This document shows, one piece after another, positions 4,093 to 38,843 of a DNA stretch of 39,002 nucleotides. The DNA lies in the NCBI GenBank assembly GCA_017555875.1, contig JAFZFN010000028.1, forward strand, positions 1 to 39,002, in the 5' to 3' direction. A program made the position numbers and the translations under genes. A model generated the notes under the pieces. The model was not told the origin of the DNA and did no database searches. It worked only from the letters and a program-made list of their open reading frames with translations. Source of the DNA: Bacteroidaceae bacterium. GTDB taxonomy: Bacteria; Bacteroidota; Bacteroidia; Bacteroidales; Bacteroidaceae. How positions within the stretch are numbered: position 1 is the first letter of the stretch; each line of letters opens with the position of its first letter.

Positions 4093-4671
4093 GTGGATAT
4101 AGGTTTTCTTAATCGTTTTGAAGAAAAGATACAGAGCGAGTTGCTCCGCCTCTGTACATCGCGTGGTATGCTCAATGGTTCATTGCTCGCAACTGATGAT
4201 GTTACTGAACATTGGAATGTGCTGGCTCCCGAGTATGTAGCTGATGCTGTAGGCCAAATAGCGGATTATCCTACTGTATCCGTGGCATGGGCTGGTTATT
4301 TAGGACTGGCGGTGGCTCATGGTTGGGATGCTAATTGGGAGGTATGTGTGCGTACGGCCTATAAGCAATATTACGGTGCGCAAGGTTTTGATGATATGGA
4401 TGAGCATATCGTACAGCATGTACTTGGACTGGAGCTGGAGAGCAAAGAGGCTAAGGATCTAGAGGTAATAATACGCAGTTGTGCTCAGATGGCCGTTACG
4501 CTCATTCGTCGTGAACAGATTGAGCCTCAGAGCCCCATGGCTTTTCATGTGTTTGCACGTGCTATCAAGGTAATGTATCGAATCGGAGCAGCTCTGGAAC
4601 TGAAACGTTTAGGTTATAAGTTTGAGGAGATGAAGTTGCCTCCTCATTTTGGTACTATGCCTGAGTGCTGA
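4093..4671 (+). CDS. Conserved-looking protein of unknown function
   Basis: Not recognised. A 192-residue soluble protein rich in Ala, Glu and aromatic residues, predicted mostly helical, with no signal peptide. Features include HWNVLAPEYVADAV (about 41-54), a stretch of alternating small and aromatic residues VAWAGYLGLAVAHGWDANW (about 64-82), QYYGAQGFDDMDEHIVQHVLGL (about 92-113) and a conserved-looking end KLPPHFGTMPEC. The start is a GTG at 4093 just after a run of ten T; ATG 4168 is the next option and would drop a well-formed amphipathic N-terminus. A weak promoter (ATTG, 20 bases, TAATTTTA) may precede it. It stands alone between two terminators. Codon use matches the neighbours, so it is probably a genuine vertical gene. 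Confidence 0.8.
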   Translation: MDIGFLNRFEEKIQSELLRLCTSRGMLNGSLLATDDVTEHWNVLAPEYVADAVGQIADYPTVSVAWAGYLGLAVAHGWDANWEVCVRTAYKQYYGAQGFDDMDEHIVQHVLGLELESKEAKDLEVIIRSCAQMAVTLIRREQIEPQSPMAFHVFARAIKVMYRIGAALELKRLGYKFEEMKLPPHFGTMPEC

Positions 4672-15020: not shown

Positions 15021-16385
15021 ATGAAACAGAAACGATTCTTCCTTCCCGAAAGCGAGATACCTACCCAATGGTACAACATACAGGCCGATATGCCCAACAA
15101 ACCCATGCCGATGCTTAATCCTAAGACGGGAGAGCCCGTGAGTCCTGAGGACCTCTATGAATTGTTCTCTCGCGAGGCTTCGCAGCAAGAGCTCAATATG
15201 ACAGATGCATGGATTGACATTCCTGAGCCGGTGCGCGAGATGTATACCTATTATCGCAGCACACCGCTTGTGCGCGCTTATGGCTTGGAGAAAGCGCTCG
15301 GCACCCCAGCACACATCTATTTCAAGAATGAAAGCGTTAGCCCTATCGGTTCGCACAAACTCAATTCGGCCCTCGCGCAGGCCTACTACTGCAAGGAGGA
15401 GGGCGTGACCAACATCACCACCGAAACGGGTGCAGGACAATGGGGAGCTGCGCTCTCGTATGCGGCAAAGGTGTTTGGGCTCGAGGCAGCTGTCTATCAG
15501 GTGAAGGTCTCATACGAACAGAAACCCTACCGTCGTAGCATCATGCAGACCTTCGGGGCACAGGTGACACCATCGCCTTCTATGTCGACACGTGCGGGCA
15601 AGGATATCCTCACCAAGTATCCCAATCATCAAGGTTCGCTCGGCACGGCTATTTCTGAGGCGGTGGAGCTGGCTAGGATGACCCCCAACTGTAAGTATAC
15701 CTTGGGCTCGGTGATGGGCCATGTGACACTGCATCAGACGGTCATTGGACTCGAAGCCGAGAAGCAGATGCAGATGGCAGGTGAATACCCCGATGTAGTG
15801 GTAGCCTGCTTTGGAGGTGGCTCTAACTTCGGTGGCTTGGCATTCCCCTTCATGCGACACAATATTAAGGAGGGTAAGACGACGCGCTTCGTGGCTGCCG
15901 AGCCTGCATCGTGCCCCAAACTCACGCGTGGTGAATTCCATTACGACTATGGTGACGAGTCGGGCTATACACCGCTGATTCCGATGTTTACGCTCGGCCA
16001 CAACTTCCGTCCGGCCAATATTCACGCAGGTGGACTCCGCTACCACGGCGCGGGTTTGGTGGTGTCACAACTCTTGAAGGATGGCATGATGGAGGCGGTT
16101 GACATTGAGCAGATTGAGTCGTTCGAGGCAGGTACTTTGTTTGCAGCTGCTGAGGGCATCATTCCTGCTCCCGAGTCGTGTCACGCCATTGCGGCCACCA
16201 TACGCGAGGCGAAGAAGTGTATTGAGACTGGTGAGGAGAAAACCATCCTCTTCTGTCTCTCAGGACACGGACTCATCGATATGGCTTCATATGATCAGTT
16301 CTTGGCGGGCAACCTTATCAACAACACTTTGAGTGATGAGGTGATTGCCGAGAATATCAGCGAGCTCTCTGCTCTTGGCTTTTAG
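15021..16385 (+). CDS. trpB2: Tryptophan synthase beta chain, TrpB2 type
   Basis: PLP enzyme that condenses indole with L-serine. The 454 residues match the longer TrpB2 subfamily, with a 50-70 residue N-terminal extension (FFLPESEIPTQWYNIQADMP) and WIDIPEPVREMYTYYRSTPL. The PLP Lys lies in SPIGSHKLNSA, followed by TETGAGQWG and the phosphate-binding CFGGGSNFGG, with SGHGLIDM near the end. ATG 15021 follows the attenuator; an in-frame ATG at 14991 lies inside the terminator stem and is rejected. No trpA or other trp gene adjoins it, so it probably works alone to salvage indole. The leader shows that it responds to charged tRNA-Trp. It ends in a heptamer array and a terminator. Confidence 0.95.
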   Translation: MKQKRFFLPESEIPTQWYNIQADMPNKPMPMLNPKTGEPVSPEDLYELFSREASQQELNMTDAWIDIPEPVREMYTYYRSTPLVRAYGLEKALGTPAHIYFKNESVSPIGSHKLNSALAQAYYCKEEGVTNITTETGAGQWGAALSYAAKVFGLEAAVYQVKVSYEQKPYRRSIMQTFGAQVTPSPSMSTRAGKDILTKYPNHQGSLGTAISEAVELARMTPNCKYTLGSVMGHVTLHQTVIGLEAEKQMQMAGEYPDVVVACFGGGSNFGGLAFPFMRHNIKEGKTTRFVAAEPASCPKLTRGEFHYDYGDESGYTPLIPMFTLGHNFRPANIHAGGLRYHGAGLVVSQLLKDGMMEAVDIEQIESFEAGTLFAAAEGIIPAPESCHAIAATIREAKKCIETGEEKTILFCLSGHGLIDMASYDQFLAGNLINNTLSDEVIAENISELSALGF

Positions 16386-16417
16386 CTCATAGCTCACATC
16401 TCACATCCCATAGCTAA
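16383..16417 (+). repeat. Seven-base tandem array at the trpB2 stop codon
   Basis: Five consecutive heptamers start at the trpB2 stop codon itself: TAGCTCA twice, then CATCTCA, CATCCCA and TAGCTAA. The array fills the space before the terminator. It has the same period as the arrays at 22869, 33570, 35382 and 38208 but a different unit. Confidence 0.75.
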
Positions 16418-18035: not shown

Positions 18036-18154
18036 TTTTCTTGTGTTTTGGTATTTAGTCTTATGTCCTAAATATAAACCAACAAAGAACAAACTCAAAA
18101 TCCCTAGTCTGTGTATTTTGAAGTTTGTTCCCTGCCTTTTCTCTACGTAAGAGC

Positions 18155-18247
18155 TTACTTCTTGCTCTTATGTCTGTTCTTTCTCAGTCTTTTTTTACGC
18201 TTGTGAGTCGCCATTTTATGACGCTTATGCTTCTTTCCGTTTGGCAT
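18155..18247 (-). CDS. AURKAIP1/COX24-domain small basic protein
   Basis: A 30-codon gene encoding MPNGKKHKRHKMATHKRKKR and then LRKNRHKSKK. Over half the residues are Lys, Arg or His. The KRHKxxTHKRKKR core is the AURKAIP1/COX24 C-terminal domain, whose eukaryotic members are mitochondrial small-subunit ribosomal proteins (mS38). Bacteroidetes annotate such genes next to hup and the RNase G gene, as here. I infer an RNA- or ribosome-binding role. It starts 39 bases after hup ends. A hairpin AAGAGC/GCTCTT overlaps the stop codon and may set the mRNA end or a processing site. Confidence 0.88.
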   Translation of the reverse strand: MPNGKKHKRHKMATHKRKKRLRKNRHKSKK

Positions 18248-18286
18248 AGTGGGAAAATTTTATGGATTAATACTCTATTTATACTA

Positions 18287-18562
18287 TTATTTCTTTACGT
18301 TTACTGCAAAGGTCTTTGCAGGCTTGAATGCGGGGATGTTGTGCTCGGGAACGATAATGGTTGTGTTCTTGGAGATGTTGCGAGCAGTTTTTTGTGCTCT
18401 TTTCTTCAAGATGAAGCTACCGAAGCCGCGCAGATAAACATTCTCTTCATTAATCAACGATTCTTTCACTACCTCCATAAAAGCCTCAACGCACTGCAAC
18501 GCTTCAGCTCTGTCAACACCTGTCTTCTTGCAGATTTCGTTAACAACTTCAGATTTTGTCAT
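18287..18562 (-). CDS. hup: HU family DNA-binding protein
   Basis: Nucleoid-associated protein that bends DNA as a dimer. The 91 residues start MTKSEVVNEICKKTGVDRAEALQCVEAF (helical dimer part) and contain NVYLRGFGSFILKKR and the DNA-binding arm ARNISKNTTIIVPEHNIPAFKPAKTF, the bacterial HU/IHF signature with the intercalating Pro. Length is standard. It is read from a promoter in the 181-base gap shared with mutY and is first of three genes ending in rng. HU versus IHF-beta cannot be settled by reading. Confidence 0.95.
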   Translation of the reverse strand: MTKSEVVNEICKKTGVDRAEALQCVEAFMEVVKESLINEENVYLRGFGSFILKKRAQKTARNISKNTTIIVPEHNIPAFKPAKTFAVNVKK

Positions 18563-18615
18563 TTCTTTTTTATCTTTATTGGGTTCTACAAATGTCCGTT
18601 TTTTATTTCGGAGTG

Positions 18616-18623
18616 CAAATATA
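18616..18623 (-). promoter_or_regulatory. hup -7 promoter element
   Basis: TATATTTG on the minus strand matches TAnnTTTG, about 54 bases before the hup start. A T-rich stretch occupies the -33 region rather than a clear TTTG. Confidence 0.5.
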
Positions 18624-18684
18624 GAGGTTTTCTTGTTGCTAAAAAAATATATTGCCGTATTTTTTTTGTAAATAGCTCACTTTG

Positions 18685-18716
18685 TTTGCTCTGTCTCATG
18701 TTTTTGCCTATTTTTG
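18685..18716 (+). promoter_or_regulatory. mutY promoter
   Basis: TTTG at 18685-18688, 20 bases, TATTTTTG at 18709-18716: both boxes match. The start near 18723 leaves about 20 bases before the mutY ATG at 18744. Confidence 0.7.
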
Positions 18717-18743
18717 CATCAATTTTTATTGTTAATGTAGCGA

Positions 18744-19799
18744 ATGGATGCAATTGTAGCCCGACTGTTCAAGTGGTATGATACTCATTGCCGCGAGTTG
18801 CCTTGGCGCTCCACGCGCAATCCTTATTATATATGGGTGTCTGAGGTTATTCTTCAGCAAACGCGCGTGGCTCAGGGACATGACTATTTCGTGCGTTTTA
18901 TCGAACGTTTCCCTACGGTCGAGTCTTTGGCCGAGGCTCCTGAGGATGATGTGTTGCGTCTGTGGCAGGGACTAGGATACTATTCTCGTGCTCGTAATCT
19001 TCATGCAGCAGCGCGGCAAGTTGTTTCGATGGGTGCTTTCCCTAGGACGTACGAGTCTATTCTCTCTCTTCGAGGTGTGGGCGAATATACTGCAGCTGCT
19101 ATCGCTTCCTTTGCCTTTGATATCCCCAAGGCTGCAGTGGATGGCAATGTCTGCCGAGTGTGGGCTCGTTTGTTTGGAGTAGATGAGCCTATCGATACGG
19201 CGCGTGGCAAACAGATGGTTTCCGAAATTGCTCAGACTCTGCTTCCTTGCACGGCTGCAGCTAAATATAATCAAGCTGTGATGGAGTTTGGAGCTTTGCA
19301 ATGCGTTCCCAAGGGACCAAATTGTGAGGTTTGTCCCTTGTCAGACAAATGTGTCGCTCTAGCCACGGGAAGGGTGGGGCAACTCCCCGCTAAGTCGCAC
19401 AAGACCAAGGTGTCTTCGCGCTATTTTACCTATCTGTTTATACATACTGATGAGGCACTGCTGCTTCACAAGCGTACAGGTGATGACATTTGGAGAAACC
19501 TTTACGAGCTACCTCTGATTGAGACGAGCGAACCTCTTTCTTTTGATGCGCTCCTTCAATCCTGCGAGTTTGCTCAGTGGCGCACTTTGTTGCCTGGCTA
19601 TACCTACAAGAGCTGTGTCGATGGAGTGAAGCATGTACTCTCGCATCGTTTGTTGTATACGACCTTTTACGAATTGCTCGTAGAGGAGCCTCTACCAAAC
19701 CCTGACGGATTTGTTGTTGTCCCCTTCGGTGAATTGGACAACTATGCACTTCCTCGGCTGATTGAATGGTATTTGGAAAATAAAACAGAGAAAGGGTAG
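18744..19799 (+). CDS. mutY: A/G-specific adenine glycosylase MutY
   Basis: Removes adenine mispaired with 8-oxoguanine in base-excision repair. The 351 residues show SEVILQQTRV (catalytic Glu, about 33-42), helix-hairpin-helix LRGVGEYTAAAIASFAF (about 109-125), VDGNVCRVWAR (catalytic Asp) and an iron-sulfur cluster CX6CX2CX5C in QCVPKGPNCEVCPLSDKC. A NUDIX-like C-terminal domain (about 225-345) recognises oxoG. All key residues are present. It heads the mutY-ssb-gldE-PPTase cluster found across Bacteroidales and diverges from hup. Confidence 0.96.
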   Translation: MDAIVARLFKWYDTHCRELPWRSTRNPYYIWVSEVILQQTRVAQGHDYFVRFIERFPTVESLAEAPEDDVLRLWQGLGYYSRARNLHAAARQVVSMGAFPRTYESILSLRGVGEYTAAAIASFAFDIPKAAVDGNVCRVWARLFGVDEPIDTARGKQMVSEIAQTLLPCTAAAKYNQAVMEFGALQCVPKGPNCEVCPLSDKCVALATGRVGQLPAKSHKTKVSSRYFTYLFIHTDEALLLHKRTGDDIWRNLYELPLIETSEPLSFDALLQSCEFAQWRTLLPGYTYKSCVDGVKHVLSHRLLYTTFYELLVEEPLPNPDGFVVVPFGELDNYALPRLIEWYLENKTEKG

Positions 19800-22350: not shown

Positions 22351-25106
22351 TTAGTCGAAGAAGTTTGGCTTTCTTTTGCGTGATTCCTCAAGTGAGAGCA
22401 GGGGAGCCTGTTCTCTCTGCATAAACTCTTGTCGTAGACTCTCTTGTTCGCTCTGTAACTGTGCGATGAACAAGTCGCGTGTCTCCTCGTTCAGTAGGGC
22501 AGCGGCAACACTAGAGTTCTGTGACGCATCCTTTACATATACCACAGGTCCTTTGTATTCGGGTGCAATCTTGAGTGCAGTGTGAGTGGCGCTTGTAGTG
22601 GCGCCTCCAATGAGAAGAGGAGTATTGATGTTAGCTTCGCGCAGAGCTTTAGCTACGTCGACCATTTCAGCCAGTGAGGGAGTGATGAGTCCGCTGAGTC
22701 CGATGATGTCAGGCTTACACTCGAGTGCTTTTTTTACTATCTCCTCTGCGGGTACCATTACACCCATGTCGATGATGTGGTATCCGTTACATCCCATGAC
22801 CACGCTTACGATATTCTTTCCGATGTCATGTACGTCACCTTTGACAGTGGCGAGGAGACCGGTCTTGTATTCTGAATTCTGAATTCTGAAGTGTTGACTT
22901 CCGTTTGTCTGTTAGCTGTTAATATCTCTACAGCCTGCTTCATTGTGCGTGCCGTCTTCACTACTTGAGGTAAGAACATACGTCCCTCGCTGAATAGCTG
23001 GCCTACCTGCTTCATGCCCTCCATGAGAGGCCCCTCTATGATGGATACTGCTGAGGGATATCTCGTGAGTGCTTCTGCAAGATCAGTTTCTAGGGTATCG
23101 CTTGTGCCTTTGATGAGGGCATTCTGTAGTCGTACTTCGAGTGGAAGAGTAGGATGTTCTCCCGCATTTTCCCCAAGAGAGGATGTCTCTCGCATTGTGG
23201 GCAGCTTAGAGTATTCGGATGCTATATTGATAAGTTTCTCGGTGGCATCAGGAGTGCGATTCAATACCACATCCTCTATTGCTTCCAGCAGTGCTTCAGG
23301 GATGTCGTCATAGCGCACCGAGGCAGAGGGATTGACGATGCCCATATCCATTCCTGCTCGTATGGCATGGTAGAGGAATACTGCATGCATGGCCTCTCTT
23401 AGGTAGTTGTTGCCGCGGAAGGCAAAGGAGAGGTTGCTCACACCACCGCAGACGTGAGCTCCTGGGAGATGAGTGCGTATCCACTCCGTAGCGCGGATGA
23501 AGTCTAGAGCATAGCTGTTGTGTGCCTCTATGCCTGTGGCTACTGCTAGGATGTTGGGGTCGAATACGATATCTTGGGGTTGCATGCCCACCACATCGAC
23601 TAGCAGATGGTAAGCACGCTCACAGATGGCAATGCGGCGCTCATAGGTGTCGGCCTGTCCCTGCTCGTCGAAAGCCATTACTACTACAGCGGCACCTAAC
23701 CTGTGTATCTCTCGGGCATGTTCGATGAAGGTCTCTTCGCCCTCCTTGAGTGATATGGAGTTGACCACACACTTACCTTGTATGCATTTCACGGCCGCGG
23801 TGATGACCTCCCATTTTGATGAGTCTACCATGATGGGGACTCGGGCTATGTCTGGATCCGATGCGATAAGGTTGATGAAGTGAGTCATCTCCTTCTCCGT
23901 GTCGAGCAGGCCATCGTCCATGTTGATGTCGAGCAGCTGTGCTCCATCTTCCACTTGATGTCGTGCAATAGTCAGCGCTTCATCATATTTCTTCTCGTTT
24001 ATCAGTCTTAGGAACTTGCGTGAACCTGCCACATTGCATCGTTCACCTACGTTGATGAAGTTGCGCTCTGGAGTTACCTCACACAGTTCCATGCCCGACA
24101 GCCACATCGTTCCAGGTCGCTTGGTGGGTGTATGTGGCTTAGCCCCCTCGATGAGTTGTGCATACTCGGCGATGTAGGCATCCGTAGTGCCGCAACATCC
24201 TCCGATGATATTGACAAGTCCTTCGTCAATGTACTCTTTTACTTGAGCAGCCATCTCGACAGGTGTCTGGTCATACCCTCCGAGGCTATTGGGCAATCCG
24301 GCGTTGGGATAACATGATATGTAGTATGGAGCCCGTGCGGCGAGACTTCTGAGGTAGGGTTTCATCTGAGCCGCTCCAAACGAACAGTTGAGTCCGACAG
24401 AGAAGATGTCTGCATGGCTCACCGAGGCGAGGAAAGCGTCGAGCGTCTGCCCCGAGAGCGTACGTCCCGCCGTGTCCGACAAGGTGACTGAGAGCATGAT
24501 GGGGAGATGCTTATCCATACGTGTCATCACCTGCTCTGCTGCGTAGATTGCAGCTTTGGCGTTGAGCGTGTCGAAGATGGTTTCGATGAGCAATGCATCC
24601 ACTCCGCCTTCGATGAGGGCCTCTATCTGTTCGTCATAGGCATCGACGAGTTCGTCAAAGGTGATGCCTCGCTTGGCAGGGTCATTCACATCGGGACTGA
24701 TGGAACAGGTCTTCCCTGTAGGGCCTATGGAGCCTGCTACAAAGCGCGGTTTGTCGGGTGTGCTCATGGCATCTGCGCATTCACGAGCGATGCGTGCTGC
24801 TGCACGATTGATGTCTTTGCACAGGTGCTGGCATCCATAGTCAGCCATAGATATGCGTTGTGCGTTGAATGAGCAGGTCTCGATGATGTCAACTCCCACG
24901 TTAAGGTAGCTGCGATGGATGTCTGCAATCACCTCGGGGCGTGAGAGGCATAGCAGATCATTGTTGCCCTTCTGCAATCCGGGCAGGTGAGCAAACTGTT
25001 GGCCACGAAAGTCCTCTTCGGTCAGTCCGAGGCGCTGTATCATGGTGCCCATAGCACCATCGAGTATGAGTATACGCTGGGTGATTACGTCTTGTAGTTG
25101 TGCCAT
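22351..25106 (-). pseudogene. metH: Cobalamin-dependent methionine synthase, frameshifted at a heptamer repeat
   Basis: MetH moves a methyl group from 5-methyl-THF to homocysteine through B12. The first frame (25106 to 22806) holds the homocysteine domain (DGAMGTMIQ, GGCCGT zinc Cys pair), the pterin domain (NVGERCNVAGSRKF, DINMDDGLLDTE) and the helical B12 cap (PQVVKTARTMKQA). It then runs through three ATTCTGA repeats (codons 740-746) into an out-of-frame tail. The B12-binding motif DVHDIGKN is intact but one frame away, starting near 22863 and running to 22351 ([16 protein letters not shown]). One extra base, one added heptamer or two lost heptamers would restore a protein of about 920 residues. 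The AdoMet reactivation domain is absent, which I believe is usual in Bacteroidales. It could be a real mutation, a phase-variable state or an assembly error. It is last in thyA-folA-metH. Confidence 0.9.
22869..22889 (-). repeat. Heptamer array inside metH
   Basis: Three perfect copies of ATTCTGA (TCAGAAT on the coding strand) occupy codons 740-746, in the linker between the B12 cap and the B12 Rossmann domain. The same unit occurs twice at 35397-35410. Seven is not a multiple of three, so each gain or loss of a unit changes the frame. Confidence 0.9.
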
Positions 25107-25145
25107 TGCGTCGTATGTCTTGGATTTTGTGTGGCGCAAGAGGAG

Positions 25146-35381: not shown

Positions 35382-35452
35382 ATCCTGAATTTTTTAATTC
35401 TGAATTCTGAATTCAACAACACAGTTGTTTACTTTCAACTCTCAATTTTCAA
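35382..35452. repeat. Two heptamer arrays upstream of rel
   Basis: 35382-35414 holds ATCCTGA, ATTTTTT and two perfect ATTCTGA with a partial third. 35432-35452 holds CTTTCAA, CTCTCAA and TTTTCAA. In YCA orientation the two point toward each other around a small hairpin (AACAAC/GTTGTT at 35415-35430). This fills the rel-mltD gap. Confidence 0.75.
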
Positions 35453-35458
35453 TTTGCC

Positions 35459-38128: not shown

Positions 38129-38207
38129 AGCGCAAGTCTTGTGTTCTTTTTTGTTTTCGAGTGTAAAATTAGCCCTATTTTCTGTAATAGCAAAATAAAG
38201 AGGGAAT

Positions 38208-38242
38208 TTATGATTTATGATTTGCGATTTGTGATTTATGAT
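38208..38242. repeat. Heptamer array between the M15 and GNAT genes
   Basis: Five consecutive units: TTATGAT twice, TTGCGAT, TTGTGAT and TTATGAT. On the minus strand they read as repeated ATCATAA/ATCACAA, keeping the YCA core. The array ends 4 bases from the M15 stop codon. Confidence 0.8.
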
Positions 38243-38246
38243 AATT

Positions 38247-38843
38247 CTATCCGCTATCTTGGTAGTCCTTTTTCGACGTTGACGTTGACCCACCATCCGG
38301 CAGGCAGTTAACGTTAACATCAATCACCTGATTTCTCAGCATGCCCGGCACATAGGAGATGTGTAGCCATCGGTAACCCTCCTCGGCGATGAGTTGGGTG
38401 AAGTGGATCTGCCCCTCGCGCTGCATCTGGACGATGAGATGGAAGAGAGCGAGATTCTGGCCCCTGCAGACCCCCTCAGTCCTTTGGACAGCTCCCCCTC
38501 TATGGGGAGCACCTTCGGAGTGTTCTCCTGAAATGTTTTGCTGCGATGTTTGCAAAGCCTCCCCATAGAGGGGGAGGTTGGAGGGGGTCTTCCCTACGAT
38601 ATCCGCCGCACATCCCACGATGTGGTGGCTGTTGGCGACTCCACCGACAGCGGTGTTGAGTGCGGGGCAGCGGTAGCCCGAGGTGACGATGATGGGTGCG
38701 CCGTAGCGGCGGCGTATGGGGTCGAGCAGCTGCTCTACGAGGATGGTGAGCATCTTACGAGCAGCATGGGGTGGTGTGTTGTCGATGGCCAGACGCTCGG
38801 CGGACGCACTCTTTACCAACTCCTCTATACTAAAATACTTCAT
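38247..38843 (-). CDS. M15A-type D-Ala-D-Ala carboxypeptidase-like protein with an in-frame repeat insertion
   Basis: Zinc peptidase of the M15 family acting on peptidoglycan stem peptides. The 198 residues have FSIEELV at the start, VTSGYRCPALNTAVGG (about 53-68), the zinc motif SHHIVGCAAD (H74, D81) and WLHISY (third ligand H161). Relatives are near 150 residues. The excess is residues 85-125, encoded by the palindromic element and low in complexity (PSNLPLYGEALQTSQ...). The insertion separates two parts of the active-site fold but keeps all ligands and the frame. No signal peptide is seen. It starts the M15-GNAT-rsmI-mltD-rel run. Confidence 0.85.
   Translation of the reverse strand: MKYFSIEELVKSASAERLAIDNTPPHAARKMLTILVEQLLDPIRRRYGAPIIVTSGYRCPALNTAVGGVANSHHIVGCAADIVGKTPSNLPLYGEALQTSQQNISGEHSEGAPHRGGAVQRTEGVCRGQNLALFHLIVQMQREGQIHFTQLIAEEGYRWLHISYVPGMLRNQVIDVNVNCLPDGGSTSTSKKDYQDSG
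38469..38589. repeat. Two-armed palindromic element inside the M15 gene
   Basis: An exact 18-bp inverted repeat (CTCCCCCTCTATGGGGAG at 38492-38509, its reverse complement at 38559-38576) surrounds a 49-base loop. It is bounded by GACCCCCTC (38469-38477) and GAGGGGGTC (38581-38589). Total 121 bases. Inside is TTCGGAGTGTTCTCC at 38514-38528, similar to a stretch in dnaG. Confidence 0.85.

Follow-up and report, generated by a model that had tools for sequence, protein, structure and literature searches.

The metH gene of the Bacteroidaceae genome studied here (G000) is out of frame in the linker between its B12 cap and B12-binding (Rossmann) domains, and this linker carries a tandem array of heptamers of a kind that recurs across the genome and the genus. 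Most likely, metH lost its frame through a change in this linker. We read the break as a slippage-type frameshift within a genus-wide family of heptamer repeats, a reading to which we give a probability of about 0.5; slippage in such a family fits the evidence better than a dedicated switch would.

The four MetH domains (homocysteine, folate, cap, and B12 Rossmann) are all present, split over two frames of the window, i.e., the whole 39,002-nt stretch of DNA analysed (Table 1). The first part matches TIGR02082 up to profile position 721 (1055.6 bits) and ends at a stop codon at 22806-22808, beyond the array, and the second part matches the same profile from position 735. As the initial annotation had it, the downstream frame retains the DVHDIGKN motif. 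The second open reading frame (ORF) as listed begins at 22803 with GTG, immediately past this motif, and thus should not give a whole B12 domain alone, while its frame is open from position 22911. No single uninterrupted metH frame exists in this genome, where the distance from FLPQV to DVHDIG (hereafter the B12-linker) is 158 nt, or 2 modulo 3. Because both frames are open over the same 106 nt, the break is located only to within that zone; the array does lie inside it, and the earlier placement of the array at the exact break point is to be relaxed accordingly. We profiled 34 ORFs chosen from the 82 in the window, 30 against Pfam and 6 against NCBIfam, with the two metH parts in both sets. 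Besides metH, no family was found split between neighboring ORFs among the 32 others profiled, and the ORFs at 4093-4671, 18125-18781, and 38247-38843 had no family match.

Table 1. Parts of metH and seven-base-phased arrays in the window (positions as numbered in the window)
Feature	Position	Strand	Description
metH, first part	22806..25139	-	Homocysteine S-methyltransferase, pterin-binding, and B12 cap (B12-binding_2) domains
metH, second part, different frame	22351..22911	-	B12-binding (Rossmann) domain including DVHDIGKN
Frame-break zone	22806..22911	-	106 nt, both metH frames open; contains the array
Heptamer array in metH	22869..22890	-	3.14 units, TCAGAAT on the coding strand (ATTCTGA on the + strand)
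Second ATTCTGA-family array	35396..35414		Intergenic, flanked by RelA/SpoT and murein transglycosylase genes
Array of AATTTTC/AACTCTC units	35435..35455		Same RelA/SpoT-murein transglycosylase intergenic gap
Array of ATTTATG units	38206..38242		Probably upstream of an acetyltransferase-like gene
Array of TAGCTCA units	16383..16407		Overlaps the end of a PALP-family gene

The three perfect ATTCTGA units first noticed in metH are confirmed, with one extra base. Three matches to ATTCTGAATTCTGA occur in the window, and none of 100 shuffles held as many. The coding-strand unit, TCAGAAT, is free of stop codons in all frames, and the reverse orientation has a stop in each. The array therefore has the layout of a tandem repeat inside an ORF with a unit length (seven) not divisible by three, and the earlier modulo-3 arithmetic, by which one or four units but not two or three would restore the frame, is correct for 7-nt units. 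From this layout the initial annotation had proposed a phase switch; the tolerant linker and an array open in all three coding-strand frames lend this partial support, whereas a switch dedicated to metH is unsupported, as such arrays occur genome-wide. We found no inverted partner of the metH array in this genome, and folding gave no RNA hairpin at the array (z, 0.14). Folded MetH linkers of relatives gave z values of -3.65 (G014), -1.29 (G002), and -1.15 (G018).

Contrary to the view of the repeat as a local feature of metH, ATTCTGA recurs across the genome and again within the window. We observe 36 sites matching ATTCTGAATTCTGA in this 2.13-Mb genome (reversed control, 0) and 264 places matching the looser pattern AATTNNNAATTNNNAATT (control, 5). 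In 928,270 bases of the genome there are 123 arrays of period 7, compared with 2 to 48 for each of the other periods between 3 and 13, and periods 14 and 21 are elevated as multiples of seven (86 and 82 arrays). The units are diverse at a constant phase of seven (AATTCTG, AATTCCT, AATTTTC, AAATCAT, AGTACGA, and others), and no single conserved unit sequence accounts for the arrays of this genome. An inverted partner lies within 140 nt of 43 of 122 arrays, against 3 of 122 random places, and a direct partner was found for 20 of 122. Sequences CATCCGGA and CCATCCGG are enriched next to arrays (7 of 10 and 9 of 23 occurrences, respectively). Two AAATCAT arrays (L146:15508-15541 and L151:1793-1827) enter, or sit a few bases before, a likely start codon, and an 806-amino-acid (aa) ORF of this genome contains a 63-nt tandem repeat (C23:16871-17026), every copy of which has a heptamer array and a CCGGA core. 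As a mover of the arrays, a Y1 (RAYT-type) transposase was considered and set aside, there being no PF01797 match at E ≤ 0.001 in G000, an assembly that is 78% complete; this family (Y1_Tnp) was matched in 5 of the 13 genus genomes tested, weakly in 4 of them.

The pattern ATTCTGAATTCTGA is present in 12 of the 19 genomes of the genus, which we call clade A, and in 5 of 42 others searched. In G003, G008, and G011, the control pattern is commoner than AATTNNNAATTNNNAATT (301, 118, and 116 against 93, 71, and 76 matches), which points to a different heptamer family in those genomes. The 301 matches in G003 are to TTAANNNTTAANNNTTAA, a separate seven-base-phased family.

The B12-linker of MetH is itself a site of varied arrays. 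Its length is a multiple of three in all 32 other loci compared (29 + 3), with G000 as the sole exception. Lag-7 scoring of 32 rows, with G006 left out and its length measured separately, gave at least 12/14 in 7 of 11 clade-A rows and in none of the 21 others. The units differ between species: TCAGAAT in G000, AATTCTC in G002 and G012, TTGACAA in G004, and AGTGGAA/AGATGAA in G009, G013, and G014. Inverted arms are seen in the B12-linkers of 7 of 11 clade-A rows; G000 is without them. Linker length is identical within the insert-sharing pairs G002/G012, G013/G014, and G006/G010, and the G009 linker is 27 nt shorter than those of G013 and G014 despite common units. None of the relatives compared has the same clean array in its B12-linker, so that for G000 a one-unit change is something we infer. 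In G006 and G010, a C-rich/G-rich palindromic insert (CCCCCTTACTCCCC ... GGGGGAGGTTAGGAGGGGG) replaces the heptamer array, and G003, G005, G008, G011, G015, G016, and G017 have a Cys-bearing motif (e.g., GCTCPEC or GCSCPEC) at the position that repeats occupy in clade A.

Frame loss goes together with a difference of exactly one unit in another broken metH, that of G012. The linker between the pterin-binding and cap domains (cap-linker) carries four AATTCAC-type units, in frame, in G002 and G013, the first unit of G013 being varied at one base. G012 has one unit fewer (263 nt versus 270 nt), the alignment with G002 and G013 shows a single clean 7-nt gap and no second gap, and the frame stops there. 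Of the 21 loci, 11 yielded no cap-linker row; 9 of the 10 that could be scored are in frame, including 5 of the 6 whose lag-7 score reaches 12 or more. MetH was seen only partially in G004 and G013. The metH gene is thus broken in an array-bearing stretch in 2 of 12 clade-A species (G000 and G012), in different linkers, and both of these genomes are drafts. The initial annotation had looked to unit counts in relatives for a check on its proposal, and the result is divided: the B12-linker is in frame in all other loci compared, whereas the G012 cap-linker is one unit short and out of frame. In G015 (L058), too, metH is broken, here by an in-frame stop that lies within the B12 domain and not in a linker, which brings the broken copies in the 19 genus genomes to three.

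Arrays also differ in length elsewhere in the genus. Between G003 and G016, which are about 95% identical over longer aligned stretches, 8 of 16 placed arrays are unequal in length, and in three cases the difference is an exact multiple of seven; two of the eight adjoin and may be one event. In a second run, 7 of 16 arrays were unequal, compared with 72 of the 3,025 segments used as controls (Fisher P = 0.001 for noncoding arrays, 5 of 8, and P = 0.012 for coding arrays, 2 of 8, any length difference being counted); no placement was obtained for 30 of the 46 arrays or for 2,766 control draws. Arrays are unequal more often than controls, and are thus unstable over species time, as seen in comparisons of length with one genome per species.

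In other proteins of this genome, arrays are carried in frame. ORFs of at least 150 aa span 27 of the 123 arrays, in frame by construction. Discounting four, namely three in ORFs of 156, 169, and 264 aa with no other support and the one at 38206-38242, leaves 23 arrays across 18 ORFs. A typical array peptide reads NSEFRIQNSEF, and a C-terminal YDLxGRxV-like stretch directly follows the array in 8 of the 18 ORFs. In a DPP4-like protein, the array is present in G000 and G013 and decayed in G012 at equal linker length, with different sequences in other species; the linker is open throughout in all 16 of 19 loci that yielded a row (the other 3 gave none), and G002 is without a close copy. Arrays lying between ORFs gave 10 junction candidates in 928 kb of this genome, metH among them. 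Five of these were rejected as array-broken genes: C19:35391 and C19:35435, where the ORFs are antisense to known genes; C25:4799 and C10:15044, with unlike families on either side; and C1:84439, where each flanking ORF has a whole ABC2_membrane_3 domain. At C4:116202, only one of the two sides has a family match, an RNase H, and the remaining candidates are C4:35567, C14:14130, and C34:15585.

MetE (PF01717) had no match in any of the 13 genus genomes tested, G000 included, and was matched in 10 of 14 control genomes; it was accordingly dismissed as a back-up. PF02574 is represented by one gene, metH, in both G000 and G012, and by one in 17 of the 19 genus genomes, with two matches in G002 and none in G013. 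All 19 are drafts of at least 40 contigs, and at the completeness of G000 a gene may be missing. With metH the only methionine synthase found, an "off" state would mean its loss. Since the B12 Rossmann domain of MetH bears the cobalamin ligand, the truncated MetH of this genome should be inactive.

Under the reading that we favor, the metH array belongs to a genus-wide family of short seven-base-phased arrays, placed between genes and in protein linkers; roughly one array in three has an inverted counterpart. A seven-base unit does not preserve the triplet frame and TCAGAAT is stop-free, so a change in unit number in such a linker would shift the frame without an immediate stop. The gene would have lost its frame by a change in unit number, or by another small indel, in the B12-linker, and the broken metH would be an incidental loss-of-function or transient allele rather than a purpose-built switch. 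Both unit slippage as the event in G000 and the presence of the allele in the cell are inferred from the assembled sequence. Counting against slippage are the equal linker lengths in related pairs, the DPP4-like linker with its one length in G000, G013, and G012, and the small share of G003/G016 length differences that are exact multiples of seven (3 of 8, with 16 of 46 arrays placed).

The break could instead be an artefact of assembly or consensus that dropped a unit, or one base, from a gene that is whole in the organism, an explanation that we consider unlikely although it deserves serious attention. The draft state of all the genus genomes and the completeness of G000 speak for it, as do the absence of any other split gene among the window ORFs scanned and the in-frame state, by construction, of the arrays in the 18 other ORFs; moreover, with no other methionine synthase found, one would expect metH to be functional. 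Against this, ordinary reads exceed the 22 nt that the array spans, two genomes of the genus have metH broken in a heptamer-bearing stretch in different linkers, and G012 differs from G002 and G013 by a gap of precisely one unit and by no further gap. Still less probable is translational recoding, or a two-piece MetH whose halves are separate proteins; we hold either to be very improbable. Both frames are indeed open across the 106 nt, but this overlap has no X XXY YYZ slippery heptamer, which led us to reject programmed frameshifting, and no run of more than three equal bases, and a two-piece enzyme is at odds with a second listed ORF that begins after DVHDIGKN.

A genuine slipped-strand phase switch (contingency locus), with reversible, high-rate changes in unit number and selection keeping both methionine-making and non-making cells, appears to us rather doubtful. 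It would account for a linker repeat of non-triplet unit length that leaves all frames open, for the one-unit difference with frame loss in G012 metH, for the breaks at arrays in two clade-A species, and for arrays that vary in length more than controls between G003 and G016. The metH array has only three units, however, and known phase switches usually have more; linker lengths are equal in several related pairs, five of the six scored array-bearing cap-linkers are in frame, the repeat family is genome-wide rather than bound to metH, and no back-up synthase was found. A broader form of this idea, in which the MetH linker arrays of the genus are contingency loci by which single cells alternate between synthesis and import of methionine, B12-dependent synthesis being phase-variable and other linker proteins affected too, is slightly more doubtful again.

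Simple-sequence contingency loci have a unit that is not a multiple of three within an ORF, with unit number setting the frame; as a rule they are longer and lie in surface, restriction, or regulatory genes. The metH array resembles them in its non-triplet unit, by which unit number would decide the frame, and differs in having three units, in lying in a core metabolic gene, and in being known from single genomes per species. Rickettsia palindromic elements are palindromic repeats in frame inside protein genes, whereas here there is no one conserved element, arm sequences differ, and the G000 metH array lacks an inverted partner. No phase-variable methionine synthase was found among the matches listed in the part of the literature searched.

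Genome-wide heptamer repeats, Bacteroidetes included, are already known. According to one study, TAACTGA direct repeats are dispersed over a genome and patchily distributed, including in five Bacteroidetes; one orientation stops all frames and the other reads through, and some lie in tolerant places of ORFs (MacGregor 2015, PMC4679880). The arrays here are likewise many, dispersed, and seven-base-phased, with read-through in one orientation and some copies inside ORFs. In that study TAACTGA is a single unit, found for the most part immediately before start codons, in 169 direct sets and a single indirect one (PMC4679880); here, by comparison, there are many units at one phase, often with an inverted partner nearby, and the same interdomain linkers carry different arrays in different species. 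The same study describes a survey of long simple sequence repeats, longer than statistically expected, in which heptanucleotides are the commonest class in most repeat-rich genomes and slippage is proposed (Mrazek et al. 2007, per PMC4679880), whereas the arrays here have about two to seven units and are often imperfect, often facing an inverted partner. What differs here is the unit diversity at one phase, the inverted pairing, and the differing arrays in the same protein linkers, which make a useful case for studying how repeats spread and are tolerated in proteins. Should the allele be real, the single methionine synthase found in this genus would be lost via a repeat family present in many other proteins, and this repeat-driven auxotrophy would be directly testable.

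We also observe that in a MetH tree leaving out G004 and G012, the seven genus members that lack the ATTCTGA pattern group as one clade (100/100), and with midpoint rooting the genera of G020 and G026 lie nearer to clade A than those seven do. In family f1, MetH open frames are about 914 to 970 aa in most genomes (1,231 aa in G027) and seem to be without the C-terminal reactivation domain, compared with about 1,205 to 1,254 aa in many other families of the order.
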